Of a stretch of 64,000 nucleotides of DNA, positions 27,628 to 43,765 are shown in pieces (position 1 is the first letter of the stretch; every line of letters begins with the position of its first letter). The position numbers were made by a program, and so were the translations under genes. The stretch covers positions 62,001 to 126,000 of the forward strand of contig NZ_JANUCT010000005.1 in assembly GCF_024808875.1 (NCBI RefSeq), given 5' to 3'. Under the pieces are notes generated by a model that ran no database searches, was not told the DNA's origin, and saw only the letters and a list, made by a program, of their open reading frames with translations. The stretch is from Methylohalomonas lacus. GTDB lineage: Bacteria; Pseudomonadota; Gammaproteobacteria; Methylohalomonadales; Methylohalomonadaceae.

Positions 27628-30252
27628 TTATTCGGTTCGACCTTTCAGCAGCGCCAACAGGCTTGGCAGCAGCAACAGCGCACACACCAGGCTGATGCTG
27701 ATGCCGAGTGTCAGCAGCAAGCCCATACTCGCAGTGCCCGCGTGGGCGGAAAACGCCAGGTTACCGATACTGCAGATGGTGGTCAGTGCGCTGATCAGCA
27801 CCGCCTGCGATGTACTGCTGCGCAATAAAGCACCGTCTGCCGGTGCCGTCCGCTGCCGTTGCAGTAGGTGAATACTGTTGTCGATACCGATACCGAGCAG
27901 CAGCGGCAGGGCAATGATGTTGGCGAAGTTGAACGGTATCTCCAGCAGCACCGTGCCCGCCGCCGTCAACAGGGCCGCCAGTGCGATCGGCGCCAGTGCC
28001 AGCAGGGTGTCACGCAGACTGCGTAACAGCAGCAGCAACAGCAGGCCGATGACCGTGAAAGCCAGTATGAACGCCTCGGTAAAGGCATCGACCACCGAGT
28101 CGCCGGCTTCCAGCTGAATCACCGGTGCGCCGATCAGGTCATCGGTTTGCGCGCGCAATGCCGTAACGAAGTCGCGCATGGCCGCTTCCGAGTCGAGCGC
28201 CTCGCTCGGCTGGATATCGACCAGGTACCAGCCATCGGGGCTCAACCAGCGATCGCGCAGTACCGCCGGCAGGCTTGCCTTATCCACGTTCTCGGCGCCG
28301 AGCGCCTCGTTCAACTGCTGCAGCCGCCCGGGCAGGTTCTGCAATAACCGGTTTTCCAGCGTTGCCAGCCGCGCGGCGGCCTCATCGGGCTGTTGTTCGA
28401 TCTGCCGGTCGAAGGCCAGCAGTTGCTGATGGAAATCCCGCAGTAACGGCTCGGATGTTTGCGGTGGCGCCGCCTCCAGATAGGCCAGCAGATCCGTGAG
28501 TGCCTGGCGACGTGCGGCCGCGCCGATGTCCGCCGTGTCTGTCGGGGTCATGAGCGTCGGCCCCAGCAGCAGGCTCAAATCATCGATAATAGCCAGCTTG
28601 TCGGCCTGGTTGGCGGGAATGAAGTCCCACAGGGTTCGTACGTCGCGGACCTCGGGCAGGGTCTCGAGCTCGCGTGCCCATTGTTTCGCCGCGCCGGCGT
28701 CACGGGTCAGCAGAATGCCGCTCAGCGGTGAAGCGTCGCTGTCGTCGATCAGGTCGCGATAGGTCTGTACCGATTCCTTGGAATCAGCCTGGAGGTTCAG
28801 GGTGTTGGCGTCGAAACGTACAGCCGGCAACAGGCTGGCAGCCACCACGGCCAGCAGCAGGGCGATCAGGCAGATACGCTGGCCGTGGCTTTGTGGCAGT
28901 CGCGCCAGGCGATCAAGCAGCGGCTGCGGTCGCTGCGGCCGGGGCCGTTCGCCGGCCGGGGCGAGGATGGCGAGCAGCGCTGGCAATAGAGTCAGCGTGA
29001 CGAACAGGCTGATGAACATACCGGTGCCCGATATCCAGCCGAGCTCGGCAATGCCGCGGTAATCGGTGGGAATGAAGGCGTACAGGCCAATGGCTGTGGT
29101 CAGTGCGCAGATAAACAATGACTGGCCGACGCTGGTGCCGGTTCGGCGCAGGGCCGCGGGGATATCCATCTCGGCATGCAGTTCACGGAAACGTAGGCAG
29201 AAATGGATGGCGAAATCGACGCCCAGGCCGATATACAGAACGGCGAAGGCCACCGAGATCAGGTTCAGTTCGCCGACCGTCAGGGTCGCCATACCGGCGG
29301 TCAGCAGCAGACCGCATAACAGCGTCACTACCGCGGCGAAGACCATGCGCACCGAACGCAGGCCAACGATCAGGATCAGGGTGACCACGATCAGCGCGGC
29401 CAGGGCGGCAATACCGGCGCCCTCGCTGACGCTTTCCAGTTCCTCGTAGGCGAGCGTGGCATTGCCGGTCAGCCGGGCACGCGCGCCGTAACGTTCATCG
29501 AGTTCCGCATCCCGGATCATTGCGCGCAAAGACTGGATGGCTGCTTCGCCCGGCAGCAGACTGTTGTAGTCGATGTGCGGCTTGATGAACAGGTATTCGC
29601 GTGCCGTGCCGCCGCTGTCCGCGTCCCCGCTGATCAGGCGCTGCCACGACAGGTGGCGGCGCTCGCCGGCCAGGTCGGCCTCGATGACCGCAGTCATCTG
29701 GCGTAACAGCGGCTCGATCGCGACATCGTCACCATCACGACGCGCTTCAACGGCCTGCTGTACCAGGCCGAACAGGCCGCGCAGGCTCGGGTCGTCGGTC
29801 AGCTGGCCGAGAAACGGCTGAATGCGTGCCAGTCGATCCGCCAGCGCCTGCAGTTCGTCCCGGTCGAGGTACAGCAGTGAACCGGTGCGAAAGAATTCGA
29901 GTTCACCGGGCTGGTATATTTCCTCGTATTCGCCGCCGTCGGCATGCAATTGTTGACCGAGGTGGCGTGCGGCGTCGGTAGCCTGATCCGGCGTCGGTGC
30001 CTCGACGACAACCACGATGTTGTTGACGTACATCGGAAACGCGTCTTCGTAGGCCAGGTCGAGCTGGCGCCAGCCGAGATCGCGCGACAGCATGTCGCGG
30101 GTATCCGTGTTCACGGTCAGGTTATTGACTGTATAAGCGAGACTGAGGCCGCTGGCGACGATCATCAGCAGGACAATGATCAGGCGGTAATGCAGGGCAT
30201 ACTGCATCCAGCGCGTAAGGATGCGATCGGTCAGGCTATTGGAATCGGGCAT
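27628..30252 (-). CDS. hpnN: hopanoid-associated RND transporter HpnN
   Basis: RND/MMPL-type inner-membrane transporter that moves hopanoids to the outer membrane in studied bacteria. The 874 residues have the usual duplicated plan: one helix, a large periplasmic domain, then five helices, repeated. The helix-4 motifs GLGVDFAIHF and GIGIDNSIHLLQR mark the two halves. ATG 30252 is chosen because the preceding residues of a longer frame overlap hpnG and are not hydrophobic. It is the last gene of the operon hpnO-sqs-shc-hpnG-hpnN, 58 bases after hpnG. Confidence 0.93.
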   Translation of the reverse strand: MPDSNSLTDRILTRWMQYALHYRLIIVLLMIVASGLSLAYTVNNLTVNTDTRDMLSRDLGWRQLDLAYEDAFPMYVNNIVVVVEAPTPDQATDAARHLGQQLHADGGEYEEIYQPGELEFFRTGSLLYLDRDELQALADRLARIQPFLGQLTDDPSLRGLFGLVQQAVEARRDGDDVAIEPLLRQMTAVIEADLAGERRHLSWQRLISGDADSGGTAREYLFIKPHIDYNSLLPGEAAIQSLRAMIRDAELDERYGARARLTGNATLAYEELESVSEGAGIAALAALIVVTLILIVGLRSVRMVFAAVVTLLCGLLLTAGMATLTVGELNLISVAFAVLYIGLGVDFAIHFCLRFRELHAEMDIPAALRRTGTSVGQSLFICALTTAIGLYAFIPTDYRGIAELGWISGTGMFISLFVTLTLLPALLAILAPAGERPRPQRPQPLLDRLARLPQSHGQRICLIALLLAVVAASLLPAVRFDANTLNLQADSKESVQTYRDLIDDSDASPLSGILLTRDAGAAKQWARELETLPEVRDVRTLWDFIPANQADKLAIIDDLSLLLGPTLMTPTDTADIGAAARRQALTDLLAYLEAAPPQTSEPLLRDFHQQLLAFDRQIEQQPDEAAARLATLENRLLQNLPGRLQQLNEALGAENVDKASLPAVLRDRWLSPDGWYLVDIQPSEALDSEAAMRDFVTALRAQTDDLIGAPVIQLEAGDSVVDAFTEAFILAFTVIGLLLLLLLRSLRDTLLALAPIALAALLTAAGTVLLEIPFNFANIIALPLLLGIGIDNSIHLLQRQRTAPADGALLRSSTSQAVLISALTTICSIGNLAFSAHAGTASMGLLLTLGISISLVCALLLLPSLLALLKGRTE

Positions 30253-30310
30253 GGCTTTGAGGCTGACTACCGAGGCGTGGTTATTAGTGTTGTCGAAATG
30301 TCGGACGTGA

Positions 30311-31021
30311 TTATCGCAAACCCAGCGTGATATCGCAGGCACGTACGTTGGCAAGACTGCGCCGCGCCCGACTGAACGCGCGCCCGAGTTGCAACAGTTG
30401 TGGCAGCAGTTGCGGCTGGCGCAGTAGCAACGCGGTCAGTTGCCTGAGATCGGCCTGACCGTAATCGTTCAGCACGCTGGTCAGTGCCGCCGGAACGGTC
30501 ATCGTGTAATTGTCGGCGACCGCGCGAATACATAAAAACGGTAACGCATGCTCTCTGGCAACGTCTGCTATGGCGGCGCTTTCCATGTCTGCAACAGCTG
30601 CGTCGGTTTGTTGTGCCAGTTCCTGTTTGCCAGTCGGGTCGGTCAGTAGTTTTTCGACACCGATCAATGCAGCGTCGTCAAAGGCAATACCGTGCGCTTG
30701 CAGGCATGTGGCCAGATGCGTATGCCATTCCGGATCAACCGGCAATTGCCGTGCACCAGCGTCAGTGAGTATCCGCCGTGGCAGAAACAGATCGCCGGGC
30801 CGGGTAGCGGCCCGCAGACCGGCGGCACAGCCCCAGCTCAACAGGTGATCAGCACCGGCCTCGATGAGTGTACAAGCCGCACGCGCAGCCGCCCTGGCGC
30901 CGATACCGCAGACCAGCAATGACTGCTGATCGGGCAGGGGCTGGATTTTGCCGGGACTGAACTGTCGGCACAGCAGCCGGCCTTCGGCCGGTAATGCCGC
31001 GATAATACCGAGATTGCTCAC
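30311..31021 (-). CDS. hpnG: hopanoid-associated nucleoside phosphorylase HpnG
   Basis: Phosphorylase-superfamily enzyme that removes adenine from adenosylhopane on the way to ribosylhopane and C35 bacteriohopanepolyols. The 236 residues show the nucleoside phosphorylase pattern: GIIAALPAEGRLL at the N-terminus, VCGIGARAAARA, and DMESAAIADVA near the ribose-binding glutamate. The start is GTG 31021, overlapping the shc stop (GTGA). The radical SAM partner HpnH that makes its substrate is not in this window. Confidence 0.9.
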   Translation of the reverse strand: MSNLGIIAALPAEGRLLCRQFSPGKIQPLPDQQSLLVCGIGARAAARAACTLIEAGADHLLSWGCAAGLRAATRPGDLFLPRRILTDAGARQLPVDPEWHTHLATCLQAHGIAFDDAALIGVEKLLTDPTGKQELAQQTDAAVADMESAAIADVAREHALPFLCIRAVADNYTMTVPAALTSVLNDYGQADLRQLTALLLRQPQLLPQLLQLGRAFSRARRSLANVRACDITLGLR

Positions 31022-33033
31022 ACGGCTGACTGTGGCAGTGGCAGCTCTGACTCGGGGAATGTCGCTGTCTCGTCACGGCCGAGCAGGGTGCGGTAACGCG
31101 CCAGCGCCCAGAACGGGAATATCTTCGCGTAACCGTGGTACTTGAGATAGAACACTCGCGGGAAGCCGGGTGCGGTGAAACTGTCGTCCGACCACAGGCC
31201 ATCGTTCTGCTGGTGTTGTACCAGATACTCGATGCCGCGGCGGACACTGTCCGAACCGGCCTCGCCGGCGGCCATCAGGGCGAGCAGTGCCCAGCCGGTC
31301 TGGTAGGGGGTGCTCGGGTGCGGCGCGCCGATGCCGTCCGGATCGTGATAGGTGTCGTTGCCTTCGCCCCAGCCGCCGTCATCGTGCTGGATCGACTTGA
31401 GCCAGTCGACGGCACGACGGATATAGTTCTGTTGCATGTCCTCGCCGGCGACTTCCAGCGCGGTCAGCACCGACCAGGTGCCGTAGATGTAATTGGTGCC
31501 CCAGCGGCCGAACCACGAGCCGTTGGCTTCCTGTTCGTTTTTTAGAAACTCGATGGCTCGCCGGCGTGCCGGGCGGTATTCCGGTTTATCCAGCAACGAC
31601 AGCTGGATGACACAGCGGCCGGTGACATCGCTGGTTGGCGGGTCGAGCAGCGCGCCGTGGTCGGCAAATGGAATGTAGTTCAGGTAATGGCAGGTGTTGT
31701 CGGAATCGAACGCGCCGTAGCCGCCATTTCTCGATTGCATGCCGCAGATCCAGTCGCCGGCCCGTTCGATATTCTCGCGATAGCGATCGGCATCGAAGTA
31801 GTGCATTGCCCAGGCCACCGCGGGTGTGTCATCGAGGTCGGGGTAGTGATCGTTGCGGTACTGGAACGCCCAGCCGCCGCCGGCGAGATCGGGGTGATTG
31901 TCCTGCCAGTCGCCGGGCTCGTCGCTGAGCTGGCGCTCGGCCAGCCAGTCGAGTGACTGGCGGATGGCATCGCTGTTCGTGCAACCGCTTTCCGTCAATG
32001 CGAAAGCCGCCCAGGCGGTATCCCAGACCGGCGAGACGCACGGCTGGCAATAGGCATAGTCGGCCTCGTCATCGATGATCAGCAGGCGCCGGATTGCCTC
32101 GCGCTGTTCGACCCGGTAGGGATGGTCGGCCGGGTAGCCGAGCAGGGCCAGAGCCTCGTAGGCGTTGACCATGGCCGGGAAAATGGCGCCGAGGCCGTCG
32201 ACACCGTTGAGACGTTCAATGAACCAGGCCTCCGACTTGCGCGTGGCGTGCTGGCGTATGAATCTCGGAATCAGCGGTTCGAACGTGCGGGCGACGATGT
32301 CCCAGATACGAAACACCTGGCCGAGCAGGGTATCCGGGCGGAAGTAGTGTTTCTCCTCTTCCGGCGGAATAGTGAACAGTTCGCGGATATCGACCCGGCG
32401 CGGATTGGCGGCACGCGGCTTGTAGCTGCACAGGATCGACAACGGGATCATGACCGTGCGCGACCAGTACGACACCTTGCTGATGTGAAACGGGAACCAG
32501 CGCGGCAGCAGCATCTGCTCGACCGGCACGAACGGTGTGCCGCGCCACGGGATCTGCTCGAACAGCGCCAGTGCGATACGCGTGAAGACATTGCAGCGCG
32601 CGGCGCCGCCGTGGGCAAGGATCGCCTCGCGGGCGCGCTGCATGTGCGGGGCGTCCGGGCTATCGCCGATGAGCTTCAGCGCGAAGTAGGCCTTGACCGA
32701 ACAGCTGAGGTCGAAATCGCCACCGTGGAATAGCGGCCAGCCGTCGTGTTCAGCGGACTGGCGCGACCGAATGTAGTTGCCGAGCTTGCGCTCCAGCTCC
32801 GGTTCGAGTTCATCCATGAAGTGATTCATCATGATGTACTCGGCCGGGATCGTGCAGTCGGCCTCCAGCTCGTAACACCAATGGCCGTCGCTGTGCTGGT
32901 CGGCCAGCAGTCCGGCTTCGGCGTGATCGATGACGCGATCGAGCCGCACGCCCGGTGGGGTCTCTGCCGCGGTATCGGCATGCGCCAGACCGGCTTCCGC
33001 TTCAGTCAGTCGATATCGCGTTTCCATCAGCAT
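31018..33033 (-). CDS. shc: squalene-hopene cyclase
   Basis: Monotopic membrane enzyme that cyclises squalene to hopene and diplopterol in one proton-started cascade. The 671 residues have the catalytic DxDDT motif as D399-L-D401-D402-T403 and several QW repeats (for example QHDDGGWGE and QQNDGLW). Length is within the family range. The start MLMETRYRL has GGAG about eleven bases upstream; METR is a possible alternative. The squalene synthase gene lies just upstream. Confidence 0.96.
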   Translation of the reverse strand: MLMETRYRLTEAEAGLAHADTAAETPPGVRLDRVIDHAEAGLLADQHSDGHWCYELEADCTIPAEYIMMNHFMDELEPELERKLGNYIRSRQSAEHDGWPLFHGGDFDLSCSVKAYFALKLIGDSPDAPHMQRAREAILAHGGAARCNVFTRIALALFEQIPWRGTPFVPVEQMLLPRWFPFHISKVSYWSRTVMIPLSILCSYKPRAANPRRVDIRELFTIPPEEEKHYFRPDTLLGQVFRIWDIVARTFEPLIPRFIRQHATRKSEAWFIERLNGVDGLGAIFPAMVNAYEALALLGYPADHPYRVEQREAIRRLLIIDDEADYAYCQPCVSPVWDTAWAAFALTESGCTNSDAIRQSLDWLAERQLSDEPGDWQDNHPDLAGGGWAFQYRNDHYPDLDDTPAVAWAMHYFDADRYRENIERAGDWICGMQSRNGGYGAFDSDNTCHYLNYIPFADHGALLDPPTSDVTGRCVIQLSLLDKPEYRPARRRAIEFLKNEQEANGSWFGRWGTNYIYGTWSVLTALEVAGEDMQQNYIRRAVDWLKSIQHDDGGWGEGNDTYHDPDGIGAPHPSTPYQTGWALLALMAAGEAGSDSVRRGIEYLVQHQQNDGLWSDDSFTAPGFPRVFYLKYHGYAKIFPFWALARYRTLLGRDETATFPESELPLPQSAV

Positions 33034-33153: not shown

Positions 33154-34224
33154 TCACGCCGAGGGACTGCGCGGCAATCGGCGGGCGGCCAGCTTAAAGA
33201 GTAAATTCAGCAACTTGTCGTTTTTGACCGTGAGATTGGTCACGGCAATCGTGGTCTTGACGCTGGTGCGCGAGATCTTTACCTCGCGGGCGTCAGCAAA
33301 ACCCGGTCGCGCATGGATGTTGCGCAGGGTCAGGACGGCCATGCCGATGGCCCACAGGCAGAACCGGCGCAGGCCGGTTTCACCGGCCGGCAGCAGCAGG
33401 GTGTAGCGCATGGCGTTTTGCAGGTGACCGTGGGCGATGCCGACCAGTTCGCGCAGGCACTGCTCGAAGGCAGCGCCGCCTTCGCCCGGCCGGACCGCGC
33501 TCAGGGTGAGGCCGGCGGCGGCAAAACGGTCACGCGGCAGCCAGCAGGCGCCGCGGGCGCGATCATCCCAGACATCCTTGAGGATGTTGGTCATCTGCAG
33601 ACCCTGGCCGAACGACACCGCCAGCGGCATGAGTTCATCGTAGTGCGCATCGATGGCTGGCGAATAATCGCAGAACAGCTCGGTGAGCATTTCGCCGACC
33701 ACGCCGGCGACGTAGTAGCAATAGCGATCCATGTCCGCCTGATCGGCGAGGCCGTCCAGCGTTTCGGCTTCCTGGTAGTGCGCCATGCCGTCGGCCATGA
33801 TGCGCACGCAACGTTCCAGCGCGCCGCGCTGGCGCTCGTTGAAACCATGGGTGATGCGAATGACGGCGGCCGTATTGGCGACCAGGTCGCGTTCCGCTGC
33901 CAGTGTCTGCGGCGCCAACCGCGGTGCCAGTTCGTCGGCGAATGCCGCCGCCGGTGTCCGCCCGGCGACGACGTCGATGAAGTGCTGGGCATAGTCGCAC
34001 TTGGCGGTTGCCGGCAGATCCTTGTCGTCCTCAATAGTGTCGGCAATGCGGCACAGCAGATAGGCATTGCCGACGACCTCACGCAGATCGCCGGGCAGTT
34101 GCGGTATCGTCAGGGCGAAGGTGCGCGAAACATCCTGCAGGATGTCGTCCTGATAATGCCGATCGGCGACGCTGGCCGGGTGGCTGTCGGTATTGGCGTG
34201 TTCGCTGGCGATAACGGATGACAT
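33154..34224 (-). CDS. sqs: squalene synthase, eukaryote-like type
   Basis: Condenses two farnesyl diphosphates and, in the eukaryote-like type, reduces presqualene diphosphate to squalene with NADPH. The 356 residues carry aspartate motif I as ADTIEDD (61-67), motif II as NILKDVWDD (213-221), the SRTFALTIPQLP opening and YCYYVAGVVG. These are closer to human or Methylococcus single-enzyme squalene synthases than to the HpnC/HpnD pair. No hpnC, hpnD or hpnE is present, which fits a single-enzyme route. Function is inferred from motifs and context; a phytoene synthase is less likely. Confidence 0.88.
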   Translation of the reverse strand: MSSVIASEHANTDSHPASVADRHYQDDILQDVSRTFALTIPQLPGDLREVVGNAYLLCRIADTIEDDKDLPATAKCDYAQHFIDVVAGRTPAAAFADELAPRLAPQTLAAERDLVANTAAVIRITHGFNERQRGALERCVRIMADGMAHYQEAETLDGLADQADMDRYCYYVAGVVGEMLTELFCDYSPAIDAHYDELMPLAVSFGQGLQMTNILKDVWDDRARGACWLPRDRFAAAGLTLSAVRPGEGGAAFEQCLRELVGIAHGHLQNAMRYTLLLPAGETGLRRFCLWAIGMAVLTLRNIHARPGFADAREVKISRTSVKTTIAVTNLTVKNDKLLNLLFKLAARRLPRSPSA

Positions 34225-34275: not shown

Positions 34276-35682
34276 TCAGGCGGAGGCCTTGTGCTTCTTG
34301 CCCCAGCCGATGGACGAACGCCCCATGCGCGACAGCGTTTCCCAGACCGGGCCGGGAAAGCGGTGCAGGCCTTTCATGACCTGGGCGAACGCGCGGATGA
34401 ATTCGTCGACGTCGGCGTCGGACAGCACCATCGGCGGTAGCAGCTTGACCACGTCGATGTGGTGGCCGGCGACCTGGGTGATCATACCGTGTTCCTGCAA
34501 AAGCGGCATGGTGATCGCCTGCGGGAACAGGCTCTTGTCCATGCGGTGGGCGATCTCCCAGCCGCTGCGCAGGGCGAACGACTCCGGCTTGGCGAATTCG
34601 ATCGCCACCATCAGGCCGCGCCAGCGGACTTCCTTCATGAATTCGTATTGCGGCACCAGCGCCTGCAGCCCCTGGCCGATGCGATCGCCGAGATCGGCCG
34701 CGCGGGCGATGTAGTTGCCCTCGTCGAGCACGTGCAGGGTCGCCAGGCCGGCGACCATGGCCAGGCTGCCCTGGCCGAAGGTCGACGAGTGCACCACCGA
34801 TTTTTCCAGCGACGGAAACACGCGATCGAAGATCCACTGGCGCGTCAGCACTGCGCCGACCGGCACGTAACCGCCGGACAGCGACTTTGACAGGATGACG
34901 ATGTCCGGGTCGACGTCGCCGTCGTGTTCACAGGCCAGGAAGCGACCGGTACGGCCCATGCCCGACTGCACCTCGTCGGCGACGAACAGCGCGCCGTGCT
35001 TGCGGCATAGCGCTGCCGCCTCGCGCAGGTAACCCGGCGACGGGATGTTCACGCCCTTGCCCTGCACCGGCTCGATGATAAATGCGGCGACGTCGCCGGC
35101 GGCCAGCGCCTGTTCCAGCGCCGCGAGATCATTGAACGGTACCATGCGGCATTCCGGCAGCAGGGGCTCGAAAGTCTCGCGGAAGACCGTATCGCCGTTC
35201 AGCGACAGGGCGCCGTTGCTGAGGCCATGGAAGGCTTTTTTGGCATGCAGTATGGCCGGCTTGCCGGTGGCGGCGCGGGCATACTTGATCGCCGCCTCGA
35301 CGCCCTCGGCACCGGAATTGGTGAAGAATACGTAATCGAGCTGATTCGGCATGCGCGCTTTCAGCTCTTTCGCCAGCAGCCCGGACAGCAGCGGCGCCTC
35401 CATCTGTACCAGCGACGGATAGTCTTCCTGCAGGAAATCGATCAGGGCCTGGCGAATGGTCGGGTTGTTGCGGCCGAGATTGAATACACCGTAGCCGGAC
35501 AGCATGTCGATGTAGCGGCGGCCCTCGTGATCCCACAGGTAGGGGCCCTGGGCACGGGTATAGCAGCGGTCGAAGCCGATGGTGCGCAGCGTCTTGGCGA
35601 AGCGCGGATTGACGTGTTCGTCGTGCAACTCGTAGTTGCGGCCCTCGGCTTCACGGATCAGGCCAAGAATGTCGAATGACAT
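34276..35682 (-). CDS. hpnO: PLP-dependent aminotransferase HpnO of hopanoid side-chain synthesis
   Basis: Class III aminotransferase thought to form aminobacteriohopanetriol from ribosylhopane. The 468 residues contain the PLP lysine K266 in LSKSLSGGYVP, the ring-pairing aspartate D236 in VADEVQSGMGRTG, and the phosphate-binding TNSGAEG (121-127). Homologous ornithine aminotransferases share these motifs, so the HpnO call rests on its place as first gene of the hopanoid operon. The next gene starts 51 bases downstream. A minus-strand terminator-like hairpin lies 180 bases upstream. Confidence 0.87.
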   Translation of the reverse strand: MSFDILGLIREAEGRNYELHDEHVNPRFAKTLRTIGFDRCYTRAQGPYLWDHEGRRYIDMLSGYGVFNLGRNNPTIRQALIDFLQEDYPSLVQMEAPLLSGLLAKELKARMPNQLDYVFFTNSGAEGVEAAIKYARAATGKPAILHAKKAFHGLSNGALSLNGDTVFRETFEPLLPECRMVPFNDLAALEQALAAGDVAAFIIEPVQGKGVNIPSPGYLREAAALCRKHGALFVADEVQSGMGRTGRFLACEHDGDVDPDIVILSKSLSGGYVPVGAVLTRQWIFDRVFPSLEKSVVHSSTFGQGSLAMVAGLATLHVLDEGNYIARAADLGDRIGQGLQALVPQYEFMKEVRWRGLMVAIEFAKPESFALRSGWEIAHRMDKSLFPQAITMPLLQEHGMITQVAGHHIDVVKLLPPMVLSDADVDEFIRAFAQVMKGLHRFPGPVWETLSRMGRSSIGWGKKHKASA

Positions 35683-36805
35683 AGTGTTATATCCCGGTAT
35701 GGAGTCAGCCAGCTGGAAACCGCATTATTCTATCAGCGCCCGCGGCCGGCTTATAGCAGCCGCGTGCCGGAGTGGTTCCTGTACTCAGACCGGCGCGGGG
35801 CGGAAACTATCCGGCCGGGACAAAGCGTGTCTGGTACTTATTTGTACCCGCCGGTACGCGGATAAAAATAGGCGCCCGGGTGGGCGCCTGTTAAGGGAGT
35901 TGAGGATACAGTCGCTCGCCATCGGGAGTGATGAGACGACGGTGATAATTCCTGCAGTAATCGTGCCGAATTCTGGATTCATTAAGAATCAAGCAGTTAT
36001 TTATAATTCTGCCGTTGATGGGCACCTTTATGCCTATTTAGGGTGCAAACGGGTTGCTTCTCTGGTGCAGAAACCTTTTTTATGGATAGTGCGTAAGCCC
36101 GTATACCTGCATGTGTACCGGGTCATACATGCCGCTGCTACTGACTGGCAACCGGATTTAGGACGGGTATTGACAAGCATATAGAGCCTTTGGCAGAGTA
36201 ATACTGTCTAGCGACGGAGCCGCCCTGCTCAGCCCACGGCGAAAACGGGCACAAGAAAATGGCTGGTCGGTTAAAGACCGATTATCCCTCCCAATTGTTG
36301 CATGGCCGCTTCACGGCCAAGCCAACTCCTTTAATGATGATATAGCGCACCTTGGCTTACGGGCCAGATGTAGCGACCTGTGTATGTGCGTTCGGTGGAA
36401 CATTGGCTGTGTCAATCGTTCCGCTCAGAGCCCGTATACACCAAACCAGATGCACACGCCGGATGGCAGTTCTTCGCTGCCATAAGACATGTGCACCCAC
36501 CCAACCGTCCAGTGCGGCTGTATTGGCGTGCGTTCCGCGCGCCCAAATACGGCCCGCTGTGACACTCGAATTGCGCTCTACCGAGCGCGGTATCCCCGTA
36601 CTCTTATGCCAGTTTTATTGCCCATCAGCCCACTCCCGGGTGGCGGCCGCCTATGGCCGGTCGTCGGGCCCAGAGTTCAGCCAGTACCGATCGCGACGGG
36701 CTGGGTAGGAGACGGTATGCCGTAGGTCTGCCAGGTCAGACCCGTTCATCAAATTGTGACGTTGCGATCATTTTATTTTCAAACAGAACAACGAGAGGGA
36801 TTTAC
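35683..36805. other. 1.1-kb region without a recognisable gene
   Basis: Apart from the minus-strand terminator at 35862-35889, I see no convincing coding sequence. Open frames of up to 182 codons exist but show no domain, no good ribosome-binding site and no family resemblance. Small hairpins occur at 36303-36319 (TGGCCG-CTTCA-CGGCCA) and at 36724-36741 (GGTCTG/CAGACC), the latter 65 bases before the recombinase gene. A minus-strand frame ends in TAA right before the terminator, which could be the 3' end of a decayed gene. Base composition is slightly lower in GC than the operons around it. Confidence 0.4.
35862..35889 (-). terminator. rho-independent terminator-like hairpin upstream of hpnO
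   Basis: On the minus strand a perfect eight-base stem AGGCGCCC / GGGCGCCT with loop ACCC is followed by ATTTTTAT. It lies 180 bases before the hpnO start in the same direction, so it either ends an unrecognised transcript from the right or acts as an attenuator in the leader of the hopanoid operon. A second small stem (GTACC-CGCC-GGTAC, 35844-35857) lies just beyond it. Confidence 0.6.
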
Positions 36806-37765
36806 ATGAAAACCAATCAGCTGTATCAATCAATGAAAGGGGAGGCAACCCGCAAACGCGTCGGCCGTGGCAGTAAAACCAGGACCGGCTATATTTTTGC
36901 CGCCAAGCATTTCACCAAAGTCATGCAGCTGCAAAATATTCAGTGCGGCCGGGCAGGAGAAGTGAAGAACAAGCATGTCAGGCCCTATGTGGATTATTGC
37001 CTGGAAAACGGTCTTGAGGTTTCGACCATTCGGACAACGCTCAGCCGTATCAGGGGGATGTGTGAGAATGTGACAATCACGAACAAGGAACTGGGTCTGG
37101 ATGACGTCGATTACCTGGGCAAGCACGTGGCACCAAGCCATGATTTTATTGCCCGGTGCTACGACAATATCAAGGACGAGGGCGTAAAAGTCCTTTGTAC
37201 AATCCAGTGGTATACGGGCGCACGCAACGAAGAGTTGCTTTTATGTGTTCAGTCCATTGATTCGTGGATCGTTACGTTGAGGTTGAGTGGTCTGATTTAT
37301 ATGCCTCATGGGACCAAAGGGGGGAAGCCCAGAAATATCATTATCCCGCATTGCTTCCACGAACCCCTGCTAAATGAACTGTGGCGCGCCAAGGAGATTA
37401 TGCGGTTGCGAGGCGGTTATCTGCTCAGGGGGACGAATCTCGATCTTTCAATCAAGCGATATCAGGACAAAATGTATCGGGCCGGTTTCAAGGGCGTATT
37501 CTCACCACACTCTTTGCGCAGCCGTTTTGCCCAGGACCTGATGGCCGACTTCGAGCGGCAGGGTGTGCCGTATAAGGAAGCCATCGCCCTTGTTTCCACA
37601 TCCCTTGGCCATGGTGACGGCGGCGACCGATGCCGCTGGGCCAGAAATAATTATCTGATTGGTTGGCAGGGCTATGGCAGGCATTTTCACCCCAAACACC
37701 ATATCAAATTGCTGGAAAAGCATTATCAGCGGTACGGATTTATAGACGAGTGGGCTCCCAGGTAA
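36806..37765 (+). CDS. tyrosine recombinase (Integrase_1-like)
   Basis: Site-specific DNA integrase of the tyrosine recombinase superfamily, 319 residues. A helical N-terminal core-binding part (about 1-105) precedes the catalytic domain with R140 (YTGARNEELL), K171, H235-xx-R238 (HSLRSRF) and H269 (SLGHG). The likely nucleophile is Y283 (NNYL), about five residues further from H269 than usual because of a basic insert. ATG 36806 has GAGAGG upstream. No tRNA, partner phage genes or clear attachment repeats are nearby, so this looks like a lone or remnant island integrase. Confidence 0.8.
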   Translation: MKTNQLYQSMKGEATRKRVGRGSKTRTGYIFAAKHFTKVMQLQNIQCGRAGEVKNKHVRPYVDYCLENGLEVSTIRTTLSRIRGMCENVTITNKELGLDDVDYLGKHVAPSHDFIARCYDNIKDEGVKVLCTIQWYTGARNEELLLCVQSIDSWIVTLRLSGLIYMPHGTKGGKPRNIIIPHCFHEPLLNELWRAKEIMRLRGGYLLRGTNLDLSIKRYQDKMYRAGFKGVFSPHSLRSRFAQDLMADFERQGVPYKEAIALVSTSLGHGDGGDRCRWARNNYLIGWQGYGRHFHPKHHIKLLEKHYQRYGFIDEWAPR

Positions 37766-39251: not shown

Positions 39252-41729
39252 ATGTCCACAAGGCTCGTCAAAGCCTACTATAATCTTGCGCTCGGCCGCC
39301 CACTCGTCGTGATTGCGGCCGTCGCCGTTCTGCTCGCCGCGGCCCTGTATCAAGCACAATATTTCGAACTCGATGCCTCCGCCGAGTCGCTCATGCTGGA
39401 AGGCGACGAGAATCTCGAGGAATACAGGGTTATCCGCCAGCGCTACGGTTCCGATGATGTATTGTTCGTGACTTTTACACCGGATGCCCCGCTCTTTAGT
39501 GAGGCAAGCCTGGATAAAATTGATGCCCTGCGGGCAGAACTCGCCGCGGTCGACCGGGTCGCCTCGGTGACCAGCCTCCTGAATGTGCCGCTGGTGCAGG
39601 GCGAGGACGTGACCTTTGATACGCTGCGTAAGGGACCACCGACGCTGCGCGATCCGGACGTGACGGTAGAACAGGCGCGCGCGGAATTCCTGACGAGCCC
39701 GATCTACAAGGACCTCATTCTCAACGCCGACGCCGATACCACCGCGTTGCTGGTCCGATTCCGCAAGGACGAGCGTTTCGCGCAACTGTTCGAGCGCCGG
39801 CGTGAACTCCGCGCCAGCCAGGATGCCGGTGGACTGGACACGGCAGGCCGGGCGGAACTCGCGCAGGTGGAACAGGCTTTCAGCCAACAGAGCGACCGGA
39901 TCCAGGTGCAGATGGAGGCGGATATCGCGGAAATCCGTTCGATTCTGGAACGCTATCGCGACCCGCCGACGATCCATCTGGGCGGTGTTCCCATGATTGC
40001 CGTGGACATGATCGACTTCGTCCGCAGCGATATACGGACATTCGGTATCGGCGTCGGGCTGTTCATCATTATCCTGCTTACGCTAGCCTTTCGCCGGACC
40101 CGCTGGGTCGTGATCCCGACCACCATCTGTGCCGGCGTGGTTCTGGCCATGGTGGGCTGGATCGGCTTCATGGGCTGGCCGGTAACGGTGGTTTCGTCGA
40201 ATTTCATTTCGCTGGTGCTCATCATCACGCTGTCGCTGATCGTTCACCTCATCGTGCGTTACCGCGAGTTGCAGGCAGGTAACGAGACCGCCGGCCAGAC
40301 TGAACTCGTCGAACAGACACTGCGCAGCAAATTCAAGCCGTCCTTCTTCACGTCGCTGACCACGGCGATTTCATTCGGCTCGCTGATGTTTGCCGGTATC
40401 CGGCCCGTGATGGACTTTGGCCTGATGATGGTGTGCGCCGTCGTCGCCGGCTTCGTATTCACATTCATCCTGTTCCCTTCACTGCTGGCCCGGCTGAAGC
40501 CGGAATCGGTCCCGCAATCGCGACGCGACCGGGCCGGAACGCTGAATCTCGGCATCGCGCACGTCGTCCACCGCCACCCAGGCCGAACCGCGATTGCTTT
40601 CATAGTGCTGACAACGCTCGGCATCGCCGGCGCGTTACAACTGACGGTCGAGAATCGTTTCATCGACTATTTCCACGAAGATACCGAGATCTATCAGGGC
40701 ATGGCGCTGATCGATCGCGAGCTGGGCGGAACGACACCCCTCGATGTCGTGATCGACGCGCCGGATAACTTCATGGAGGATTACAAAGAAGCCCGGGCCT
40801 TCGACGCGGAAATGGGGCTTGAGTCTGAGCCAACGCCGGCCCAGGGCTACTGGTACAATGCCGGCGGCATCGAGCTGGTCACTGAAATCCAGGATTACCT
40901 GGAAAGCCTCGACGCGACGGGGAAGATCCTGTCCCTTGGTACAACCTGGGAGGTGGTGCGCCAACTCAATGACGGCGAGCCGCTTGAACCCTTCGAACTC
41001 GCGATTCTTTACAATCAGGCGCCGGAAGAGATCCGTCAGCAGCTGATCGATCCGTACATGACTGCGGATGGCAACCAGATCCGCTTTGATATCCGTGTTA
41101 TCGATTCGCTCCCCGGCTTGAACCGCGACCGCCTGCTCGAACGGATTCGAACGGAACTGCCGGAGAAGTTTGATCTGCAACCGGAACAGCTCACGCTGTC
41201 AGGCATGCTTGTACTCTACAACAATGTCATGCAGAGCCTGCTTCACTCGCAGATCGTGACACTGGTGGTGGTCTTTGCGGCTATCATGCTGATGTTCGGT
41301 ATCCTTTACCGGTCCCTGCGCATGGCGCTCATTGGCCCAATCCCGACGGCTGCTGCTGCCAGTATGGTGCTCGGCATCATGGGCTGGGTGGGTCTGCCAC
41401 TCGACATCATGACCATGACCATTGCCGCGATCGCCATTGGTATCGGCGTGGACGACACCATCCATTATGTCGACCGCTATCGGACGGAAGTGAACCTGGG
41501 GGCGGATAATGCTGCCGCGGCGGCAACCGCCCACCACTCGGTGGGTCGGGCAATGGTCTATACGACCGTGATCATCACCCTCGGTTTTTCCATACTGACC
41601 CTGTCCAACTTCATGCCGACCATCTACTTCGGTCTTCTGACCGGACTCGCTATGGTACTGGCGCTGGTCAGTAACCTGGCGCTACTGCCGGTACTGCTGG
41701 AGCGACTGCGGCCGTTTGGCAAGCAATGA
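39252..41729 (+). CDS. RND/MMPL superfamily transporter
   Basis: Proton-driven inner-membrane exporter of the RND superfamily, MMPL/hydrophobe branch, 825 residues. The plan is one helix (about 18-37), a periplasmic domain, five helices, then a repeat of the same. The second half has GIGVDDTIHYVDRY with the aspartate pair in helix 10; the first half has SLVLIITLSLIVHLIVRY without it. It is not HpnN-like in detail and has no membrane-fusion partner beside it. Such proteins often move lipids or hydrophobic compounds; a FadL-type porin gene lies next to it on the other strand. Confidence 0.88.
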   Translation: MSTRLVKAYYNLALGRPLVVIAAVAVLLAAALYQAQYFELDASAESLMLEGDENLEEYRVIRQRYGSDDVLFVTFTPDAPLFSEASLDKIDALRAELAAVDRVASVTSLLNVPLVQGEDVTFDTLRKGPPTLRDPDVTVEQARAEFLTSPIYKDLILNADADTTALLVRFRKDERFAQLFERRRELRASQDAGGLDTAGRAELAQVEQAFSQQSDRIQVQMEADIAEIRSILERYRDPPTIHLGGVPMIAVDMIDFVRSDIRTFGIGVGLFIIILLTLAFRRTRWVVIPTTICAGVVLAMVGWIGFMGWPVTVVSSNFISLVLIITLSLIVHLIVRYRELQAGNETAGQTELVEQTLRSKFKPSFFTSLTTAISFGSLMFAGIRPVMDFGLMMVCAVVAGFVFTFILFPSLLARLKPESVPQSRRDRAGTLNLGIAHVVHRHPGRTAIAFIVLTTLGIAGALQLTVENRFIDYFHEDTEIYQGMALIDRELGGTTPLDVVIDAPDNFMEDYKEARAFDAEMGLESEPTPAQGYWYNAGGIELVTEIQDYLESLDATGKILSLGTTWEVVRQLNDGEPLEPFELAILYNQAPEEIRQQLIDPYMTADGNQIRFDIRVIDSLPGLNRDRLLERIRTELPEKFDLQPEQLTLSGMLVLYNNVMQSLLHSQIVTLVVVFAAIMLMFGILYRSLRMALIGPIPTAAAASMVLGIMGWVGLPLDIMTMTIAAIAIGIGVDDTIHYVDRYRTEVNLGADNAAAAATAHHSVGRAMVYTTVIITLGFSILTLSNFMPTIYFGLLTGLAMVLALVSNLALLPVLLERLRPFGKQ

Positions 41730-42000
41730 ACGAGTTGTTCAGGAGACCGGTTTGAATGGCAATAGGTCAATCTGTTTGCAATGATTGCCAGTGTTGGCCC
41801 GGTAGAATCGCCCGTCGAAGAAGGCGTTGCCGGGCGGCTGGCGCTATCAGAGGAACACCGAAAGCAGAATAGACTAACATCCGGGATTTACTCTTAACTA
41901 AACCGACCATGAAACGCGTTAGAATTTTTTAAACTGTTTAAAATCCTCAGAAGCCGCCACCAGATCGAAGAACCAAGTCGCTAACCAGGAAATTGTGTGG
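41730..42000. other. convergent gap between the RND gene and the FadL-type gene
   Basis: No gene is seen. An AT-rich palindrome TTTTAAA-CTG-TTTAAAA lies at about 41928-41944 and could end transcription from one or both sides. The rest has no notable structure. Confidence 0.35.
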
Positions 42001-43362
42001 TTAGCGGACGAATGGATTAACAAATGAAATATTGAATGTCAGCCAATGTGTGCTGACAGCGACCCTGCTGTTGTCATATTCACCGGACAGTAGCGCGCTG
42101 CGGTTAACGCTTTGCGATGCTGGCAAGTTCCATTGGTAAGACAGATCGAGCTGGTAATTGCCGACCCGCTGTCCAATCCCGATCCCCAGGATATGCTCGC
42201 TGATTGCTGCGGTTAGTGGTGTTAGCGTTGATGACGGGACCGGGCTTTCACCATAGCTATAGCCGGCCCGCAACAGGGTGTTATCGGACACGGCATACTC
42301 GGCACCGAAGCGGAATACCCAGCTGTCACTCCAGTCCAGCGGTACATTATCGTACAAGCGGTCGCTGCCTACGATGTTGTTGATCGCACTATTGCTGCCG
42401 TTGCTGAGCGCAACAGGCAGTGCATCGAAAGCCCGATCCCAGCCGAGCCAGTCAATCTGGCTGTTTAATTTTAGTTGAGGCTGCGCCTGCCATTCGATGC
42501 CAATACTGGCCACATCAGGCAGACGTGTTTTCACGTCTGCATCATAGGTAAACAATACCGGCGCACCAAACTCGCCGCTGACATCCCCGCGAGCCGTGCC
42601 ATCCGTATGAAATGTTGTCGGCGTGGTGTAGCGCATCCCAAGCGTTACATCCGGGTCCGGCTTCACCATCAGGCCAAAGGTGGCATTGACACCTAAACCC
42701 TCCGTTTCCATGTCCAGCAGCGTTTTAAAACCTGCCAGATCAGGCTGCGACTGAAACACATACGGGGCCTGTAGCCGATTTTCGTTATAAATAACACCTA
42801 GTGAAGCGCCGAGATGAACGCCGTCGGAAATCTCTCTAGCCACACCCAGTGCGGCGCGCAGAGCCAGAAAACGGGAACGATGTTTTTGCCGACCATAGCT
42901 TATAGAGCCGTCAGAGCCCCCTGCCGCGTCAACATACTGCCAGTTGGATTCGGCCACGGCGATCGGGCTCAGGCTTAAACCGAAACCTGTGTCGCCAAGT
43001 TTATAATTCAGTGCGATATCGGCCAGAATGCCGGGATCGGTGTCGTCAGAAACCTGATTATTCGCACTATTGCTAAATTCAGCATCGAGAATGGCCACGC
43101 CGCCACCGATCTGAATAGCTGAATATGGCAGTGTGCTGAGACCGGCTGGGTTGCCTGTCATGGCATCAATGGGGCCCTGCGTAGAGGCCGTATTCGTGCC
43201 GCCCAGCGCGGCGGCACCGGCACCATGACCATTTCTGAGCACCCCATTGGCCTGTGATTCAGAGCTCATCAGGAACAGGCATAGTGCGATCAAGGCGCAT
43301 AATTTAACGGAAAACTGTGCAAAATTGCAGTTGACTACTGCACCGATGACATATGACCGCAT
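42001..43362 (-). CDS. OmpP1/FadL family outer membrane transport protein
   Basis: Outer-membrane beta-barrel that takes up long-chain fatty acids or other hydrophobic molecules. The 453 residues start with a signal peptide (about 1-38, ending SQA-NG) followed by the FadL-type plug region NGHGAGAAALGGTNTA and the conserved GNPAGLS. The rest alternates amphipathic strands and ends NISFVNPFVR; the final residue is not the common phenylalanine. ATG 43362 is used; a TTG one codon earlier is less likely. Substrate is unknown. Confidence 0.85.
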   Translation of the reverse strand: MRSYVIGAVVNCNFAQFSVKLCALIALCLFLMSSESQANGVLRNGHGAGAAALGGTNTASTQGPIDAMTGNPAGLSTLPYSAIQIGGGVAILDAEFSNSANNQVSDDTDPGILADIALNYKLGDTGFGLSLSPIAVAESNWQYVDAAGGSDGSISYGRQKHRSRFLALRAALGVAREISDGVHLGASLGVIYNENRLQAPYVFQSQPDLAGFKTLLDMETEGLGVNATFGLMVKPDPDVTLGMRYTTPTTFHTDGTARGDVSGEFGAPVLFTYDADVKTRLPDVASIGIEWQAQPQLKLNSQIDWLGWDRAFDALPVALSNGSNSAINNIVGSDRLYDNVPLDWSDSWVFRFGAEYAVSDNTLLRAGYSYGESPVPSSTLTPLTAAISEHILGIGIGQRVGNYQLDLSYQWNLPASQSVNRSALLSGEYDNSRVAVSTHWLTFNISFVNPFVR

Positions 43363-43765
43363 CAAGTCCTCCCCATCAATATTCCTGATAGCAATAATAG
43401 CAGAATAGGATTAATCGAAAACATTGCCTGTTGAAAAAAATGAAGGGGCAAAGATGAACATGGTGCGTGGGCGCTGAGCATAGCAGTGGTGTCGTCCGCG
43501 ATGCGATGGCAGATATTGGCCGGGTGAGGCGTTGAGAGCGCGAAGCTGGACAAGGCGATCAACAGTTCTGGCCTGGCGATGCATTTTGAACTTACCTGCG
43601 GCAACCTCCATGACAGCACTCGGGTTAATCGCTGCTGCGTCGGCCACGCCCGGGGTAGAGGTGGCAAGCGACAACCGCTACGTGGTACATCAAACGCTAG
43701 TAATAATATGCAAGAATAGTGCGATGGACTAAGCAAGACTGCCTGTTTGAAAAAAACAACAAGCC
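43363..43765. other. 400-base region without a clear gene
   Basis: Open frames of 66 to 124 codons exist on both strands, but none has a good start site or family resemblance. Near-identical strings occur at about 43425-43439 (TTGCCTGTTGAAAAA) and 43738-43752 (CTGCCTGTTTGAAAA), 313 bases apart. They could mark a small decayed mobile element, but I see no transposase. Confidence 0.35.

Follow-up and report, generated by a model that had tools for sequence, protein, structure and literature searches.

The window, a stretch of 64,000 nucleotides from the genome of Methylohalomonas lacus, carries on its minus strand a squalene synthase gene (sqs, 33154-34224), identified by its ORF, family models, alignment, trees and predicted fold. 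According to the ORF call, the gene reads from an ATG at 34224 to a stop at 33154 and encodes 356 amino acids. The preliminary description had given the length and the coordinates exactly; the strand is minus, and the plus-strand translation of 33154-34224 is a different protein, not the sqs product. The gene is located between an aminotransferase gene and the squalene-hopene cyclase (SHC) gene, both also on the minus strand, with gaps of 51 bp and 120 bp, respectively. The class-III aminotransferase (34276-35682, minus strand, PF00202 at 299.1 bits) reaches no specific NCBIfam cut-off and matches no HpnO model among the 25 matches listed; we take it to be a candidate HpnO. On the other side, the SHC (hpnF, 31018-33033, minus strand, 671 amino acids) scores 806.5 bits with TIGR01507 (cut-off 431.1). 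It overlaps by 4 bp an HpnG-like nucleoside phosphorylase (30311-31021, minus strand), whose 176.7 bits with TIGR03468 lie below the cut-off of 187.1. The last member is HpnN, a hopanoid-associated RND transporter-like protein (27628-30354, minus strand) with a mechanically called TTG start, which scores 953.8 bits with TIGR03480 (cut-off 751.85) and 689.8 bits with a second HpnN model, NF052374, below its cut-off of 1100. Membership of sqs in a hopanoid cluster is indicated by the SHC and HpnN beside it, both above the TIGR cut-offs.

A scan for promoters and terminators remains at chance level (2 promoters for 2.5 expected, 3 terminators for 4.6), and none of the terminator-like sites falls on the minus strand in the interval from sqs to SHC. 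The GC content of the operon, 0.61-0.64, is similar to that of the window surroundings upstream of it. Just upstream of the operon, at 36653-37765, is a 370-residue integrase (Pfam Integrase_1, 60.1 bits), around which the GC content drops over 2 kb (0.53 vs about 0.62). Farther away, 39252-43365 harbors a transporter of the RND/MMPL type that matches the Pfam Sterol-sensing model at 26.7 bits (cut-off 22.3), adjoining a FadL-type outer-membrane protein (94.3 bits); both are possibly involved in lipid transport.

The three motifs named in the preliminary description are all found in the protein. The first Asp-rich motif, ADTIEDD (residues 61-67, 34024-34044), aligns with human D80-D85, the segment YCYYVAGVVG (residues 168-177, 33694-33723) brings Y168 to the position of human Tyr171, and the second Asp-rich motif, NILKDVWDD (residues 213-221, 33562-33588), aligns with human N215-D223. 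The F288 codon (33361-33363) is the equivalent of human Phe288, and VKISR (residues 315-319, 33268-33282) occupies the place of human VKIRK; all of these segments are encoded on the minus strand. In the accessible part of PMC10378455, a change of Phe288 is described to cause the loss of the second half-reaction in human SQS, and VKIRK (314-318) is suggested to be the NADPH site. With D62/E65/D66, Y168, D217/D221, F288 and V315-R319, the window SQS exhibits the equivalents of both Asp-rich motifs, Tyr171, Phe288 and VKI-x-R.

The alignment further reveals that the human SQS residues S51, R52, F54, Y73, R77, D80, E83, D84, Y171, Q212, N215, D219, D223, F288, C289 and K315 are identical in the window protein, while K45 is replaced by Asp, S53 by Thr, R218 by Lys, R228 and P292 by Ala, and R317 by Ser. 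The Lys at the position of human R218 is common to 18/18 bacterial SQS rows, and 97 of the 108 distinct SQS ORFs share the VKI[ST]R signature. Conservation of S51, R52, E83, F288 and K315 does not extend to the nine HpnD and eight HpnC rows, K315 being matched in a single one of the eight HpnC rows.

Identification of sqs is more than a chance match because the protein scores 200.4 bits with Pfam SQS_PSY (cut-off 26) and is 44-62% identical to the 17 other SQS rows picked for the trees. Among the compared specific models, the ranking is SQS, HpnD, HpnC and CrtB, none attaining its curated cut-off: TIGR01559, the curated SQS model, gives 114.6 bits for 286.75, HpnD (TIGR03465) 77.3 bits over residues 144-322 for 278.6, HpnC (TIGR03464) 57.3 bits for 250.45, and CrtB (NF042419) 48.7 bits for 480. 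The SQS of N. europaea and Methylovulum also stay below the TIGR01559 cut-off, with 127.1 and 118.5 bits; the curated model misses bacterial SQS proteins, hence the usefulness of the finding for annotation. A grouping with CrtB, which the preliminary description had named as a refuting outcome, is contradicted by these scores, the trees being built without a characterised CrtB.

Sequence comparison with the PDB gives eukaryotic SQS as the top matches, and no bacterial one-enzyme SQS is found among the PDB matches listed. The AlphaFold2 model of the window protein (mean pLDDT of 93.8) superimposes on the 22 listed eukaryotic SQS entries with Z values of 34.6-37.5, and is aligned through its last residue, 356. 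With CrtM-type enzymes Z is at most 27.7, with HpnC 24.4, and those alignments stop at or before residue 336. Eukaryotic SQS possess a C-terminal membrane anchor. The window protein ends where the human catalytic domain does (human residue 362) and therefore has no space for such an anchor.

In a tree of 54 rows, the bacterial SQS form one clade (99/94) adjoining the eukaryotic chains and one long bacterial row, while the FDFT-like and HpnD groups are each not a single clade. Removal of six long-branch rows yields a tree of 48 rows in which the bacterial SQS are again one clade (99/88), joined with eukaryotes at 97/92. In both trees the SQS clade is distant from HpnC and HpnD. Using the 48-row tree, a constraint uniting SQS and HpnD is rejected (p-AU 0.008), contrary to the HpnD grouping named as a refuting outcome in the preliminary description, whereas one that moves SQS away from eukaryotes to the FDFT-like proteins passes the test (p-AU 0.415). 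On model scores, residues and trees together, an HpnD or HpnC identity is rejected.

The rest of the genome, a 38-contig draft of 2.76 Mb that is 98.97% complete, contains no HpnC, HpnD or HpnE above cut-off, and the three genes are likely absent from it. The sole match of the HpnC model in the whole genome is sqs itself (40.3 bits), the HpnD search gives no match at 1e-30, and the best HpnE match reaches 46.1 bits for a cut-off of 283.05. This last match (L003) is a 414-amino-acid FAD oxidoreductase-like ORF and was rejected as a hidden hpnE; it adjoins two ORFs resembling, by eye, a DUF1365 protein and a fatty-acid desaturase. One other SQS_PSY protein (L002, 34.6 bits) was rejected as a second SQS: no Asp-rich motif is visible by eye, and its neighbours look like gph and ubiG. 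Proteins of this type are presumably NDUFAF6-like. Among other pathway genes, HpnH (551.9 bits, contig C2) lies together with HpnB (411.7 bits) and Dxs (902.9 bits) on another contig than sqs, and two polyprenyl synthases are present. The proposal that a single SQS stands in place of HpnC, HpnD and HpnE is hence supported, neither an HpnD or CrtB grouping nor an HpnE above cut-off elsewhere having been found.

Related stretches are widespread: 206 have been confirmed in prokaryote genomes. According to record titles, the 80 of the 206 that were kept comprise 34 Nitrosomonadales, 11 Methylococcales and 5 Legionellales, and also include Hydrogenedentota (4), Myxococcota (2) and Opitutales (1). 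In 22 of these 80 kept loci the next gene downstream, in the same orientation, encodes SHC, and in 24 SHC is present anywhere in the locus; among them, loci titled Nitrosomonas display no SHC, some loci ending short. An aminotransferase gene is found in 9/80. A plasmid search returned 20 records, all below 60% identity, and there is therefore no close mobile copy among them.

Co-occurrence was examined in 229 genomes of the class, treated as one set across searches since number and handles agree. A threshold of at least 290 bits defines SQS (39 genomes) and a range of 73-131 bits the FDFT-like proteins (10 genomes); neither count includes the weaker or partial matches of G024, G020 and G203 or the HpnD/HpnC-like rows. 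SHC, HpnE and HpnD exceed their cut-offs in 30, 47 and 58 genomes, respectively. SHC is accompanied by SQS in 28 of its 30 genomes (Fisher p 9e-25), by HpnD in 1/30 and by HpnE in 0/30. The two SHC genomes devoid of SQS are G070, which is 78% complete and whose SHC is truncated where a contig begins, and G121, which has HpnD and an FDFT-like protein. No SQS genome has HpnD or HpnE above cut-off (0/39 each). The generalisation that HpnC, HpnD and HpnE serve most hopanoid clusters thus fails in this class, none of the SHC genomes having HpnE above cut-off. The arrangement of the window is normal for its class, and the finding corrects HpnC/D/E as the default there: in the sample, it is the one-enzyme SQS that accompanies SHC. 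Conversely, 11 of the 39 SQS genomes are without SHC above cut-off (G014, G032, G064, G086, G104, G144, G176, G179, G216, G220 and G227; in G179 a cyclase is matched weakly, at 260.6 bits), and SQS is therefore not tied to hopanoids alone. To note, none of the 47 HpnE genomes has SHC above cut-off, so that squalene made by HpnC/D/E there seems to serve a non-hopanoid use.

Judged from its sequence and gene context, the sqs product is very probably a one-enzyme squalene synthase, soluble and of the Methylococcus/Nitrosomonas type, feeding SHC and the synthesis of hopanoids, sterol-like membrane lipids built from squalene. Evidence on the other side consists of the score below the TIGR01559 cut-off, the replacements at human K45, R218, R228, P292 and R317, and the draft state of the genome. 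Given its place in the SQS clade, its SQS residues and the lack of HpnC/D/E above cut-off in the genome, one-enzyme synthesis of squalene from farnesyl diphosphate is likely, catalysis and cofactor being assigned by analogy with relatives and from conserved residues. Two farnesyl diphosphates would be joined at both Asp-rich motifs to yield presqualene diphosphate, which would be kept bound, rearranged and reduced, probably with NADPH, to squalene within one active site. SHC, the product of the next gene, would cyclise squalene to hopene, as the gene set suggests. The side chain would then be built by HpnH and HpnB, encoded elsewhere in the genome, by HpnG and perhaps by the aminotransferase, and HpnN probably moves the product.

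Alternatively, the window protein might be, like HpnD, a presqualene diphosphate synthase only, with reduction left to another enzyme. The partial HpnD match reported above would accord with such a role, as would the two-step split raised in section 16 of PMC5462960 for distant FdfT proteins co-occurring with HpnD. This reading is nevertheless very improbable: the Phe288 equivalent and VKISR, both associated with the second step, are retained, the genome has neither HpnC nor HpnE above cut-off, none of the 39 SQS genomes of the class sample has HpnD or HpnE above cut-off, and the tree uniting SQS and HpnD is rejected. It is also highly unlikely that the hopanoid link is incidental and that the squalene (or dehydrosqualene) goes into C30 carotenoids or some other compound. 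The 11 SQS genomes without SHC attest that other uses exist somewhere, and for Methylomonas, in the part of PMC10745290 at hand, it has been suggested that squalene is a precursor of C30 carotenoids. However, sqs is followed on one strand by the SHC, HpnG-like and HpnN genes, and HpnH and HpnB are present in the genome, in which carotenoid genes were looked at through the SQS_PSY and HpnE models only.

The preferred assignment, a one-enzyme SQS serving SHC, has close counterparts. The SQS of Methylococcus capsulatus is a characterised gammaproteobacterial enzyme (Ohtake et al. 2014, as cited in the available part of PMC5462960). The accessible text of PMC517821 places the M. capsulatus SHC and squalene synthase homologues among MCA0812, MCA0813 and MCA2873, and that of PMC10745290 describes, for every Methylomonas genome it covers, one SQS_PSY gene in a cluster with SHC and the absence of hpnCDE; the sections of PMC8172173 and PMC7839719 that could be consulted contain nothing on bacterial one-enzyme SQS. 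Methane-oxidising relatives are already known to have this arrangement, and given these published cases of SQS beside SHC, the window SQS is another case of it. Like Methylohalomonas lacus, Methylococcales and Nitrosomonadales with a one-enzyme SQS have one SQS gene and no hpnCDE in the genome. In Methylococcales SQS directly precedes SHC, as in the window (in the Methylovulum locus L118, 25 bp separate them). The window SQS is 55-60% identical to the Methylovulum and N. europaea proteins, and there is no difference of kind, the upstream aminotransferase gene being unusual. With eukaryotic SQS (FDFT1, TIGR01559), the window protein shares the fold, the Asp-rich motifs, Tyr171, Phe288 and VKI-x-R, but differs by its low identity (26-29%), a Lys for R218 and an Ala for R228. 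The HpnC/HpnD/HpnE route leads to the same product, and HpnC and HpnD belong to the same superfamily; it differs by clade and residues and by employing three genes instead of one. The finding settles the probable squalene route of Methylohalomonas lacus and by itself opens no new question.

As to origin, a tree of 44 rows, in which haloarchaeal and Burkholderiales sequences were added and HpnC and HpnD-like rows omitted, shows the bacterial SQS as one clade (99/96), sister of eukaryotes plus haloarchaea. Support is 98/93 for the whole group and 97/89 for the eukaryote and haloarchaea pair; the program flags the eukaryote branch and the haloarchaea branch as long. A recent transfer of sqs from a eukaryote might be evoked by the eukaryotic nature of the top PDB matches, but a bacterial one-enzyme SQS is lacking among the PDB matches listed. 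Such a transfer can be set aside as exceedingly unlikely in view of the 44-62% identity within the bacterial clade against 26-29% to the three eukaryotic chains, the separation of this clade from eukaryotes and haloarchaea, the many related prokaryote stretches and the GC content shared by the operon and its upstream surroundings. By these sequence comparisons, the window sqs is no recent import from eukaryotes. Of the designation as eukaryote-type, the membership in the SQS clade and not in HpnD stands, but the protein belongs to a separate bacterial clade, with low identity to the eukaryotic chains and a score below the TIGR01559 cut-off. Since the bacterial clade is sister of eukaryotes plus haloarchaea, it is better designated as a one-enzyme type that bacteria share with haloarchaea and eukaryotes.

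The question of the origin of SQS has reportedly already been posed in print, by Santana-Molina et al. in 2020; our literature search found no wide phylogeny of bacterial SQS. The trees raise the tentative and rather doubtful idea that eukaryotic SQS, which catalyses the first committed step towards sterols, has its origin in a prokaryotic one-enzyme SQS lineage now serving hopanoids. The reverse direction may also be compatible with the sampling, which comprises 3 eukaryotic chains, 3 haloarchaea and no cyanobacteria.

Bacterial FdfT-like proteins, from Burkholderiales and others, are SQS-like and branch further out than the window SQS, outside both the proteobacterial hopanoid-cluster SQS clade and the eukaryote and haloarchaea branch. 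This FDFT-like group consists of L173-L182 (G205, G128, G101, G077, G178, G071, G075, G200, G121 and G033), L201 and L202, and displays 22-30% identity to the window SQS. In the 12 aligned rows, human E83 is replaced by Ala in 10 and F288 by Ala in 9. By eye, no hopanoid cluster is seen among the larger ORFs of L174, L176, L178, L181 and L182. The 10 sample genomes, chosen by score and not sampled for HpnD co-occurrence, have HpnD above cut-off in 10/10, HpnE in 0/10 (G101 has 245 bits, below it) and SHC in 1/10 (G121). Acidobacterial FdfT proteins have been proposed, in the available part of PMC5462960, to convert HpnD-made presqualene diphosphate to squalene; a two-enzyme HpnD and FdfT route would fit the co-occurrence, which is not proof of it.

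Two other sets of sequences lie close to the eukaryotic enzymes. L198, L199 and L200 are one-enzyme SQS genes carried by haloarchaeal plasmids, and join eukaryotic SQS (97/89, long branches). A 329-residue SQS-like protein with bacterial-looking neighbours (L184:7091-8080, genome G020; TIGR01559 at 125.5 bits) groups with eukaryotic SQS in the 54-row tree (100/98) on a very long branch, a position that may reflect transfer, fast evolution or an artefact.
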